This document shows, one piece after another, positions 26,224-30,691 of a stretch of 64,000 bases of DNA (position 1 is its first letter; each line of letters starts with the position of its first letter). The notes beneath the pieces are model-generated. The model saw only the letters and a program-made list of their open reading frames with translations, was not told where the DNA came from and searched no databases. Position numbers and translations under genes: made by a program. The stretch is from Verrucomicrobiota bacterium (GTDB taxonomy: Bacteria > Verrucomicrobiota > Verrucomicrobiia > JADLBR01). Location: the NCBI GenBank assembly GCA_029560585.1, contig JAKQKQ010000234.1, forward strand, positions 1 to 64,000, written 5' to 3'.

Positions 26224-27096
26224 TTACAGCATGAGCGCGGCGAGGTTGGTGGCGATCCTGGCGGAGACCTCGGGGGTGAACGCGGCCGGCGAGACGCTTT
26301 CGGCGGCGGGTTGAAGGATCGCGATGGCGACCGTCCCAGGCCGCGCACCACCGGCGCGGGCCCATTCGCCGGCGGACTCGCATGAGACGGTGCCGGGCTG
26401 GAGTTTTCGGTCGGTCAATTGGAGGATGAGCAACCTTTCGCAGTGGGGGATCTCATCAATGGCCGCGCGGAACTGGTCGCCCCGATTACCGAGCGAGACC
26501 TCGACCGGATAGCCGGCCGACAGCAGGCCCTCGACGAGTTTGCGACCGGCACCCGAGTCTCTGCGCAGGATGCCCGAGGTGATGAGCGTGACCCGTTCGC
26601 CGCGCCGATTGGTCAGCCGGATTCGCTCAATGGCGCTGAGGTCGTCGGCACGCGCGAGTGTCCCGGGTTGCACGCGGGCCCAGGCCGTGCGGCGGGAGCT
26701 GCTGACTGCGTGCCCGACCGCGGTGCGGATCTCGTCCGGGCGAAAGGGCTTCGCGAGATAATCGGCGATCCCCAGCCGCCGTGCGGCGGCTTCGGCACGC
26801 TTATCGGAGTGGCCGCTGATAGCGATCACGGGCGGGGCGCCGAGGGGGAGGCGACGGCTGGCGCGGTTCAGGCGATCGAGGAAGGCGACGCCATCGAGCG
26901 CGGGCATTTTGATGTCGAGCACGATCGCGTCATACTTTGTGCTGAGCGCGCGCGAGAGGCCGTCGTGCGAGTCGGTCGTCGTCTCGACGACATAGCCGTG
27001 CGGGGCGAAGATGCGCTCGCAGCTCTCGCAGATGATGGGCTCGTCATCCACGACGAGCAGGCGGGGTTTGGATTCTGTTGATGTCACGGTGTCCAT
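26224..27096 (-). CDS. Response regulator with degenerate hydrogenase-maturation-protease-like output domain
   Basis: 290 residues. The receiver has Asp17/Asp18, phospho-acceptor Asp61 in VLDIKMPALDG, and the Lys of LAKPF near 117. The C-terminal domain (about 168-290) follows the HycI/HybD pattern: ILRRDSGAG at 177-185 for GNxLxxDDGxG, RLLILQLTD..QPGTV at 223-238 for the VDA...PG segment, and AILQPAAE near 265 for the IQP segment with the final helix. The three metal ligands of HycI appear replaced or missing, so a sensing or binding role is inferred, not proteolysis. A sigma-54 promoter lies 55 bp upstream. Confidence 0.6.
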   Translation of the reverse strand: MDTVTSTESKPRLLVVDDEPIICESCERIFAPHGYVVETTTDSHDGLSRALSTKYDAIVLDIKMPALDGVAFLDRLNRASRRLPLGAPPVIAISGHSDKRAEAAARRLGIADYLAKPFRPDEIRTAVGHAVSSSRRTAWARVQPGTLARADDLSAIERIRLTNRRGERVTLITSGILRRDSGAGRKLVEGLLSAGYPVEVSLGNRGDQFRAAIDEIPHCERLLILQLTDRKLQPGTVSCESAGEWARAGGARPGTVAIAILQPAAESVSPAAFTPEVSARIATNLAALML

Positions 27097-27336: not shown

Positions 27337-28775
27337 TCAGGGCTCGGCGTGTCCGCGGAGGCCGTGTTTCTGGAGGAGGGCGTGGAGCTGGGTGCGCTGG
27401 ATTCCGACCATCTCTGCGGCGCGGCTGACGTTGTCGCCCGAGCGCTCGAGGGTCTCGACGAGGAATCGGCGCTCGAGGTCCTGGACTGCCTCATTGCGGA
27501 GGCGCCGCTTGAGGTCGCGGAACGCCTGCCAGCTCTGTGGCAGCGAGCCGACGACCGGCGCGATGCGCACGCCGAGGAGTTCCTGTGGCACGTCGCCGAC
27601 ATCGAGGAGATCGCCCGTGCCGAGCACGGCCATGCGCTCGACGATGTTCTTGAGTTCCCGGACATTGCCCGGCCAGGGGTGGCTGTCGAGAAGGCGCATG
27701 GCTTCGGGGCTGAACCCGCGAGCGCGGATTTCGGGGTGATCCTTTCGGAGACGTTCGAGAAAGGCGAGGGCGAGCAGTGGGACGTCGCCATGGCGATCAC
27801 GCAGTGGTGGGAGGCGCACGGGGAGGACGTTGAGGCGATAGAAGAGGTCCTCCCGGAATTGGTTCTTGGCGACGAGTTCGGCGAGGTCGCGGTTGGTGGC
27901 CGCGACCAGGCGGATGTCTATGTCCTCCTCGTCCGTGGCTCCGACCTTGCGGACGCGCCGGGTCTCGAGGACGCGGAGGAGTTTCGCCTGGGTTTCGAGG
28001 GAGACATTGGCGATCTCGTCAAGGAAGAGCGTGCCGCCGGAGGCCGCCTCGAGCAGGCCGATGCGCGTGGCCGTGGCCCCCGTGAAGGCGCCCTTGACGT
28101 GGCCGAAGAGTTCGCTTTCGAGGAGGGATGGGCTGAGCGTGCCGCAGTCGCAGGCGAGGTATGGGTGCTCGCGTCGGGGGCTGAGGCGGTGCACGGCGCG
28201 AGCGACGAGTTCTTTTCCGGTGACGCTCTCACCGGTGATGAGGACGGTGCCCGGAGTGGGGGCAACGCGGCGAAGGATCGTGAACACCCGCTGCATCGCG
28301 CGGCTTTCGCCGATGATCCCCTCCAGGCCGCGGTGCGCTTCGAGCTCGCGGCGGAGGGCGGCATTTTCGCTGATGAGCGCCGAGTGTTCGGCGACCTTGC
28401 GGACGACCAGTCGCAGTTCGTCGGGCGAAAACGGCTTGCAGAGATAGTCGGTTGCGCCGGCCTTCATGGCATCGACGGCCATCTCGACGGTGGCGTGTCC
28501 CGTGATTATGATCACCTCGGAGCGGACGTTGGCCGCGCGGATCTGGCGGAGCATCTCGATGCCGTTGGCCTGTGGCATGACGACATCGAGCAGGATGATG
28601 TCGTATTGGTCTCCCAGGGCGGCCCGATGCCGAGGCGGGGATCCTGAAATATATCGACATGGCAATCGCCGGAGGCGAGCGCCCGCCGGCAGCTCATGCC
28701 GACGACCGCCTCGTCGTCGATGACGAGGACGCGCCCGATGCCCGGTGGCGTTGGGGGTGTTTTGTTTTCGTTCAT
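27337..28775 (-). CDS. NtrC-family sigma-54 response regulator, frameshifted in the receiver domain
   Basis: The N-terminal receiver starts with ATG at 28775 (RVLVIDDEAVVG), overlapping the kinase TGA by 4 bp. Near 28623-28625 the frame changes: the phosphorylation segment DIILLDVVMP and everything after are in another frame. The span of 1439 bases plus one missing base gives 480 codons, so a single G lost from a GGG run explains it. Downstream are an AAA+ domain with Walker A GESVTGKE, GAFTGA (sigma-54 contact) and R-finger regions, then a Fis-type HTH (NVSRAAEMVGIQRTQL). It is a sequencing error or a recent mutation. Confidence 0.85.
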
Positions 28776-30691
28776 GGGACGGGGGTTGCGGCGGACTCGG
28801 GCCGGTCGGGGAAGGTGATGGCAAACGTGCTGCCCTTGCCTGGCTCGGAATCGACGTCGAAGGTGCCGCCGTGTTTCTGGACAATGCCGTAGCTGATGCT
28901 GAGGCCGAGGCCGGTGCCTTTGCCGACGGCTTTGGTCGTAAAGAAGGGTTCAAAAATGCGCTCGATGTCAGAGCGGTGGATGCCGTGGCCCGTGTCCTGG
29001 ACCTCGAGGCGGACGCCGCCGTCGTGAATGGCCGTGCGGATGGTCAGGCGGCCGGCGCCAGACATCGCCTCGCAGGCGTTGAAGCAGAGGTTGAGCAGGA
29101 CCTGTTGTATCTGTGACCGGTCGCCGTTGAGCGTGAGGGGATCCTCGGCGGAATCATGTTGGATATCGATGGCGTCAAACTCCCGCTGGCTGCGCACGAG
29201 CTTGAGCGTATGGCGCACCATGTCGTTGACATCGAACGGTGCCTTGTGCATGGGGCGACGCCGGGCGAAGTCCAGGAGGCCCCGGACGATTTCGCGGACT
29301 CGCTCGGTCTCGTGGATGATGATGTCGATGTCGTGGCGCTCTTTTTCGCCCAGTGCGCCCTCCTCGCGAAGGAGGTGGGCGAAGGAGAGAACACCGGTGA
29401 GGGGATTGTTGATCTCGTGGGCGACGCCGGCGGCGAGGCGGCCGACGGAGGCGAGTTTCTCGCTCTCTGAGATGGTCTTGTGCGCGTATTCCTTGAGCTG
29501 GCGCTCTCGGTCGGCGACGGCATCGACCATTGCGTCGATAGCCTGGCAGACGAGGCCCATTTCGCCCGGCGGGCGAGAGTCGGTGCGCGCGGTGAGGTCG
29601 CCACTGATGATGCGGCGGCACATGCTCATGATGCGATCGACGGGTCCGAGGAGGCGGCGGATCACAAACAGGATAAGCATGAGGCTGGCCGCGGTGGTGA
29701 GGCCGAGGGTTATGAGGATGACCTGCGTGCTGATGTCCAGCGATCTGCGGAAGGCCCTTTCGAGCAATCCGACGTAGAGGGCGCCGATGACACGGTTGTC
29801 GGGATCGCGAATGGGCTCATAGGCGGTGATGTACCAGTCGTTGACGACGTAGGCGCGGTCTGCCCATGGCTGGCCATTCTCGATGACGCGCTGGCGGACC
29901 TCGGCGCTCAAACGGGTGCCGGTGGCGCGGCGGCCGTCGGCGGTGCGGACGTTGGTGGCGATGCGGATGTCACCGAGGAACAGGGTGGTCGTGCCGATCT
30001 CGCGATGTTCGAAGGATTCACCCTGGAAGACATCGTCCTTGATGAGATCGACCAGCTCGTCGTGGTCATTGAGCAGGGTGGCGCCGAAGAGGACGCCCAC
30101 GACCCTGTTGTCGAGGCGGATTGGAATCGCGGTGGCGATGAACATGCCATCGCGCAGGAGCTGGGTCGGGTGGGTGGAGCCATCCGGCTGGAGGGTCGTG
30201 ATGGTGGCGGCCTGGGCGAGCCGGGCGCTTTCCAGGGAGAGGTCGGCGGCCCCGATGACAATGGTGCCGGAGGTTGGGCGGCCTGACTCGAGGGCGCTGC
30301 GGACCAGGGGGCGATCGCGGAGGCTATCGCCGCGGACCGCTGGATTGTGTGCGCGATGGAGCACGACGCCCCTGGCATCCAAGAGTGCCAGGATGTCGAA
30401 TTCGCCATCGAGGGGCATGGAGCGAAATATCTGCGCCGCGAGCTGGGGCTGGTCGTCGCGGAGGGCCTGCGCCAAGGGGGCGTCGAGGGCCGCTCCGCTG
30501 AGGAACTCCTGGCGATTGCGGATGGCGTCGGTGTAGACGCGACGGGCGGAGTTGAGATCCAGGCGGACGCGGGTCTGGACTTCGGCGGTGAAATCGCGCC
30601 GGAGCTGAAAGAGGGTGGCCAGGGCGATGATCGAGTTTGCGGCCAACAGAAGGCCGACGAACCAGAAGGTCAGTTTGGAGCGGGTCGTCAT
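28772..30691 (-). CDS. Membrane sensor histidine kinase with extracytoplasmic Cache domain and HAMP
   Basis: 639 residues: membrane helix at about 8-30, a Cache-type sensor at about 35-320 (FIATAIPIRLDNRVVGVLFGA, NDWYITAYEPIRD, VIGALYVGL), a second helix at 324-346 and HAMP to about 400. The H-box AAGVAHEINNPLTGV has His425, and the ATPase domain has LLNLCFNACEAM, DTGHGIH, FEPFFTTK and GTGLGLSI. It senses a small external ligand and phosphorylates the NtrC-type regulator whose start overlaps its stop. ATG at 30691 is preferred over an upstream start at 30742. Confidence 0.88.
   Translation of the reverse strand: MTTRSKLTFWFVGLLLAANSIIALATLFQLRRDFTAEVQTRVRLDLNSARRVYTDAIRNRQEFLSGAALDAPLAQALRDDQPQLAAQIFRSMPLDGEFDILALLDARGVVLHRAHNPAVRGDSLRDRPLVRSALESGRPTSGTIVIGAADLSLESARLAQAATITTLQPDGSTHPTQLLRDGMFIATAIPIRLDNRVVGVLFGATLLNDHDELVDLIKDDVFQGESFEHREIGTTTLFLGDIRIATNVRTADGRRATGTRLSAEVRQRVIENGQPWADRAYVVNDWYITAYEPIRDPDNRVIGALYVGLLERAFRRSLDISTQVILITLGLTTAASLMLILFVIRRLLGPVDRIMSMCRRIISGDLTARTDSRPPGEMGLVCQAIDAMVDAVADRERQLKEYAHKTISESEKLASVGRLAAGVAHEINNPLTGVLSFAHLLREEGALGEKERHDIDIIIHETERVREIVRGLLDFARRRPMHKAPFDVNDMVRHTLKLVRSQREFDAIDIQHDSAEDPLTLNGDRSQIQQVLLNLCFNACEAMSGAGRLTIRTAIHDGGVRLEVQDTGHGIHRSDIERIFEPFFTTKAVGKGTGLGLSISYGIVQKHGGTFDVDSEPGKGSTFAITFPDRPESAATPVP

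Follow-up and report, generated by a model that had tools for sequence, protein, structure and literature searches.

A response regulator family with a degenerate hydrogenase maturation protease domain, encoded in kinase-NtrC units and probably linked to Hdr-Mvh hydrogenases

Kinase/NtrC control of hydrogenases is of an already known kind: the HoxJ/HupT kinase and the HoxA/HupR NtrC-type regulator form the two-component control of [NiFe]-hydrogenase genes. It is also well established that proteases of the HycI type recognise their substrate through the nickel in the precursor. To our knowledge, little is known about the regulation and assembly of Hdr-Mvh-type hydrogenases in bacteria. Here we have analysed a 64,000 nucleotide stretch of DNA from a Verrucomicrobiota bacterium (contig JAKQKQ010000234.1, positions 1 to 64,000; the window in what follows) that encodes a response regulator ending in a degenerate relative of the HycI/HybD proteases, which we call pseudo-HycI. 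The unit in which this gene lies resembles HoxJ/HupT-HoxA/HupR in that it pairs a histidine kinase with an NtrC-type regulator apparently linked to [NiFe]-hydrogenase genes; it differs in having a membrane kinase with a Cache sensor and an extra, non-DNA-binding regulator that contains pseudo-enzyme domains. With the HycI/HybD proteases (PF01750, TIGR00072; PDB 5ttx, 5zby, 2i8l) the pseudo-HycI domain shares its predicted fold and its order of motifs, namely LxxDxGxG, a hydrophobic strand, a PG turn, a QP strand and a C-terminal helix; unlike them it is fused behind a receiver and has lost ligand residues, as detailed below. HdrABC-MvhADG complexes (group 3c [NiFe] hydrogenase), whose operons lie beside several relatives of the regulator and of which one set is found in the window's genome, are the probable regulated enzymes and not homologues of the regulator.

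Table 1. Features of the regulator locus in the window (positions are those of the window)
Feature	Coordinates	Strand	Evidence
Response regulator gene, 290 aa: receiver, short linker and pseudo-HycI domain	26224..27096	minus	
Receiver domain, residues 14-127, phospho-acceptor Asp61	26716..27057	minus	PF00072, E 2.4e-24
Linker, residues 128-155; in relatives, GCV_H-like domain and second, degenerate receiver at this place	26632..26715	minus	family alignment; PF01597 and PF00072 matches in relatives
Degenerate HycI/HybD-type hydrogenase maturation protease domain, residues 156-290	26227..26631	minus	
Sigma-54 (-24/-12) promoter TGGCACGCCATCTGCT, 70 nt upstream of the start codon	27151..27166	minus	pattern score; conservation before relatives
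NtrC-type sigma-54 activator, REC-AAA-HTH_8	27337..28775	minus	Pfam
Membrane sensor histidine kinase: Cache-type sensor, HAMP, HisKA, HATPase	28772..30691	minus	Pfam

The regulator gene lies on the minus strand, which the original prediction did not give, and reads through 290 codons from an ATG start (Table 1). That prediction described a canonical receiver with Asp61 as phospho-acceptor, and both the Pfam match and the family alignment bear this out: D17, D61 and K116 are invariant across the regulator family, so that the acidic pair, the Asp and the Lys that characterise receivers are all present.

Establishing the ancestry of the C-terminal half requires more than the window protein itself. 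No Pfam family, PF01750 included, matches this half; its top NCBIfam match is the hydrogenase maturation protease family TIGR00072 (E 0.0014), at 18.7 bits against a curated cut-off of 47.45, and in a search of 39 related genomes the domain matched best, itself excepted, a true HycI protease 161 aa long (L012, E 0.0019). Taken singly, the window sequence would thus be weak evidence for kinship with HycI (E about 1e-3). A phmmer search of PDB with the single sequence gave no match, and AlphaFold2 run on the single domain sequence returned a model of low confidence for which a fold search found no match either. Direct searches for the domain in a collection of genome contigs, in plasmids and in 384 genomes of the class uncovered no close relative, producing weak matches only, the meaningful ones among them being HycI proteases of one genus. 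In a TIGR00072 scan of 388 genomes of the phylum for fused frames, the one odd match (G084) proved to be an antisense frame and was set aside.

The picture is very different once the family described below is considered as a whole. A profile of the pseudo-HycI domains from the window and 18 relatives aligns with one built from 22 real HycI proteases with an hhalign probability of 97.7% (E 2.2e-12), and still at 97.5% when the window sequence is left out; 30 column-shuffled HycI profiles reach at most 0.7%, and the controls do not exceed 1.0% when a reversed profile and four unrelated profiles are included, placing the similarity well above chance. TIGR00072 is matched by 10 of the 19 family members, and the five NCBIfam families that members match are all hydrogenase proteases or maturation factors. 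The best match of the family profile in PDB is hydrogenase 2 maturation peptidase, a weak one (E 0.12). AlphaFold2, given the window domain and the 18 relatives in an alignment free of HycI sequences, produced a model with a pLDDT of 89.4 and a pTM of 0.84, for which Foldseek places hydrogenase maturation protease chains (5ttx, 5zby) at ranks 1-4 with probabilities of 0.75-0.92 and moderate scores (TM about 0.5, E 0.02-0.03). We are therefore highly confident that the domain is of the HycI/HybD type in ancestry, not in chemistry, and the core of the original prediction, a receiver joined to a degenerate hydrogenase maturation protease, stands on concurring profile comparisons, family scans and structure predictions. 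It is hardly credible that the resemblance is convergent and the fold an unrelated Rossmann-like α/β one: the weak similarity of the single sequence and its unmatched model speak for convergence, but the profile match spans the domain, with GxG and PG in order, no control profile matches, and several tests name one and the same family.

What has been lost is the nickel site. In the joint alignment the first ligand position (D/E16), acidic in only 9 of the 19 members, is occupied by Ser181 in the window copy; the Asp62 position, here Gln226, is Asp in none of the 19; and the segment carrying the ligand His (H90/93) is deleted in every one of them. For D/E16, D62 and H90/93, the positions by which nickel recognition is judged, the window copy thus offers Ser, Gln and a gap. 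The GxG and PG motifs are retained across the family. The original prediction had the two substitutions right and their numbering slightly off (Ser182 for Ser181, Gln228 for Gln226), and its missing THxxP His corresponds to the absence of the His-bearing segment from the window copy. From this computed loss of the nickel site the domain is predicted to be catalytically dead and to cut nothing. Its suggested role in sensing the nickel state finds no support in the same alignment, nor is it probable that the domain senses nickel or the maturation state of a hydrogenase through a remodelled metal site. The nickel dependence of substrate recognition by HycI proteases and the acidic residue that persists at the first position in some members speak for such a sensor, which we nonetheless judge very improbable because an intact ligand set is found nowhere in the family, with a second ligand that is never Asp and a His segment gone from all, the window copy being devoid of all three ligands.

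Relatives of the regulator were located through the neighbouring kinase, whose sensor, searched against 84,980 species genomes, yielded 80 loci. At 18 of these, next to the kinase and an NtrC gene, there is a gene for a regulator of about 525-570 aa with a C-terminal match to the window domain (phmmer E 5e-15 to 2e-3; identity up to 41% over the aligned protein). The hosts are labelled Planctomycetota, Deltaproteobacteria, Candidatus Omnitrophota and Bacteroidota, with one unclassified proteobacterium, and the family spans at least five bacterial phyla. The regulators with a pseudo-HycI domain almost certainly form one family. All 18 relatives have four domains, in the order REC, GCV_H-like, pseudo-receiver and pseudo-HycI. 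PF01597, the family of glycine cleavage H and lipoate-binding proteins, scores above the Pfam cut-off in 7 of 8 relatives scanned (E 2e-9 to 4e-15), and this part shows no conservation of the lipoyl lysine found in true H proteins; the second, degenerate receiver aligns with the first at an hhalign probability of 96.9%. The window copy keeps REC and pseudo-HycI only and is a shortened member of this larger family. In a search of the window's own phylum (A4) the matches listed, besides the window protein, had essentially the GCV_H-like part only and were ordinary GcvH.

Two variants of the architecture were observed. One frame (L114:5344-6606, minus strand) comprises REC, GCV_H-like domain and pseudo-receiver without pseudo-HycI, with a sigma-54 site upstream, and the parts of the regulator are therefore separable. 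Another (L104:10663-13317, plus strand) encodes 884 aa, the four domains being preceded by one more receiver, at the N-terminus, and by a hydrophobic stretch that possibly spans the membrane; a search of the phylum of its genome (A3) was positive in 1 of 343 genomes, the one already known.

All 18 relatives sit beside a homologous kinase and NtrC gene, and the window copy shares this synteny with its Cache kinase and NtrC. In a genome of the same genus we find an orthologous kinase (71-73% identical) and the NtrC gene, together with a regulator that the contig end cuts off after its first 50 residues (78% identical). Comparison with the NtrC orthologue of that genome reveals that the NtrC receiver in the window is split by a single frameshift near 28623-28629 (minus strand), which is either real or an assembly error. 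The frameshift, together with the missing middle domains and the fact that the short form is known from the window only, its same-genus orthologue being cut by the contig end, raises the question of whether the window copy is what decay or mis-assembly has left of a full-length regulator, with no function of its own. We consider this unlikely, given that the frame is open, that the receiver residues and the core motifs of pseudo-HycI are intact and that the sigma-54 promoter is conserved.

The promoter is conserved before other members of the family. The same-genus orthologue has a sigma-54 site, TGGCACGCGCCTTGCT, at 72 nt. Among 22 upstream regions, 16 reach a score of at least 14 of 16, with sites 49-135 nt from the start; the remaining regions score 12-13. 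As a background, the 2.26 million strand positions of all loci contain about 122 such sites, or about 0.02 expected per 350-nt region. Because the sigma-54 promoter before the regulator exceeds this background, the adjacent NtrC protein is the likely activator of the regulator gene. The Hdr genes found directly behind the regulator at some loci showed no separate sigma-54 site, the regulator itself usually having one, which fits co-transcription. In the window's own genome the pattern gives five matches against 14 in a reversed control, a chance level from which no regulon can be read; sigma-54-like sites of this chance-level kind lie before OsmC-like and pilin-like frames (L187:1501-1516, L186:1501-1516). 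Upstream of most Hdr-Mvh operons unlinked to the regulator, that of the window's genome among them, no sigma-54 site was seen, so that direct transcriptional control of the hydrogenase is not the general rule. Two Hdr-Mvh operons of family genomes that lie apart from the regulator (L223, L224) have near-perfect sigma-54 sites upstream, and the second of these adjoins a second NtrC-like gene.

Gene neighbourhoods provide independent support for the hydrogenase connection that had been guessed for the window protein. Hdr genes adjoin 5 of the 18 relatives; in 3 of these 5 Mvh-type [NiFe]-hydrogenase genes are visible as well, one of them also with a genuine HycI. One locus (L235) reads, on one strand, NtrC, regulator, HdrD/HdrC-like, EtfB, EtfA, HdrD, HdrA, MvhD, MvhG and MvhA, with the kinase upstream in L133; another (L236) reads HdrC, HdrB, HdrA, MvhD, MvhG, MvhA and HycI followed by NtrC, regulator and kinase. 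At L233 and L234 the kinase-NtrC-regulator unit is immediately ahead of HdrC, HdrB and HdrA, and at L237 it is close to an Etf-Hdr-MvhD operon. The key gene names are supported by Pfam (NiFeSe_Hases, FlpD/Mvh delta, CCG, HycI, ETF). HdrA is present in 18 of 20 family genomes, the window's and the same-genus one included, versus 2 of 20 other Verrucomicrobiota, a control drawn from this phylum only, with three Verrucomicrobiota already known to bear HdrA excluded from it, while most family members come from other phyla. A real HycI protease occurs in 16 of 19 family genomes; the two genomes in which HdrA was not found and the three in which the protease was not found are incomplete MAGs. Within the window the unit is not adjacent to hydrogenase genes. 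Elsewhere in the same genome, where the original prediction proposed to look for them, contig C142 carries an HdrCBA-MvhDGA set (L221), and the genome encodes three genuine HycI proteases. From these comparisons some link of the family to Hdr-Mvh hydrogenases is probable, and since several members lie beside hydrogenase-type clusters, the regulator probably helps to control hydrogen metabolism.

Operon, sigma-54 promoter and Hdr-Mvh association are shown at the level of genome comparison. With moderate confidence we interpret the protein as an accessory response regulator of a kinase-NtrC unit that would control Hdr-Mvh-type [NiFe]-hydrogenase complexes, its dead HycI/HybD domain docking on the hydrogenase. 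In such a scheme the membrane Cache-domain kinase would phosphorylate the NtrC protein, which in turn would switch on the regulator through the sigma-54 promoter and, in some species, also the Hdr operon behind it. The conserved residues suggest that phosphotransfer from the kinase would extend to the regulator too, making it a non-DNA-binding partner of the kinase-NtrC pair that is controlled by phosphorylation. Once phosphorylated, it could dock by its pseudo-HycI domain, with no cutting, on the hydrogenase large subunit or the unprocessed precursor and could then adjust assembly or activity, or report assembly status to the circuit. The docking step is tentative, being suggested by homology and genomic context. 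More tentative still is the proposal that a phosphorylation-controlled adaptor built of degenerate parts (H-protein, receiver, hydrogenase protease) docks through pseudo-HycI on electron-bifurcating Hdr-Mvh complexes and links a membrane sensor to the assembly or activity of these complexes, which would make it a new class of signalling output. Alternatively, pseudo-HycI may be a structural or partner-binding module of the circuit, binding the kinase or NtrC or serving as a phosphate sink, and make no contact with a hydrogenase. The unit is conserved even away from hydrogenase genes, a domain stripped of its protease site need not retain the original substrate, and the NtrC protein probably has the regulator among its targets; we nevertheless hold this to be rather unlikely, for it leaves unexplained why a hydrogenase-protease fold should have been recruited by a signalling unit found time and again beside Hdr-Mvh operons.

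Neither pseudo-HycI as the output of a response regulator nor the four-domain family appears to have been described, in line with what the original prediction said of the fusion: we found no description in the open-access literature searched. A regulator that includes an inactivated hydrogenase protease and is sometimes the first gene of a sigma-54 Hdr-hydrogenase operon offers a handle on hydrogenase control. Pseudo-HycI would be a new example of a maturation enzyme reused as a signalling part, and the regulator provides a simple marker by which to recognise such control units in genomes of Planctomycetota and other phyla.

The kinase family overall adjoins HdrABC and NuoFG-like genes in many phyla. 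Homologous Cache kinases occur with a receiver-kinase hybrid, a small receiver and HdrCBA at L090, L091, L092, L144, L146, L150 and other loci, which suggests a wider Hdr-linked signalling family; some Verrucomicrobiota among these loci also carry formate dehydrogenase. GCV_H-like domains without the lipoyl lysine were also seen near Hdr/NuoF genes, fused to NuoG-like ferredoxin or other proteins (L121:2871-4160, L138:2217-3929, L126:4460-6277, L152:10884-11729).
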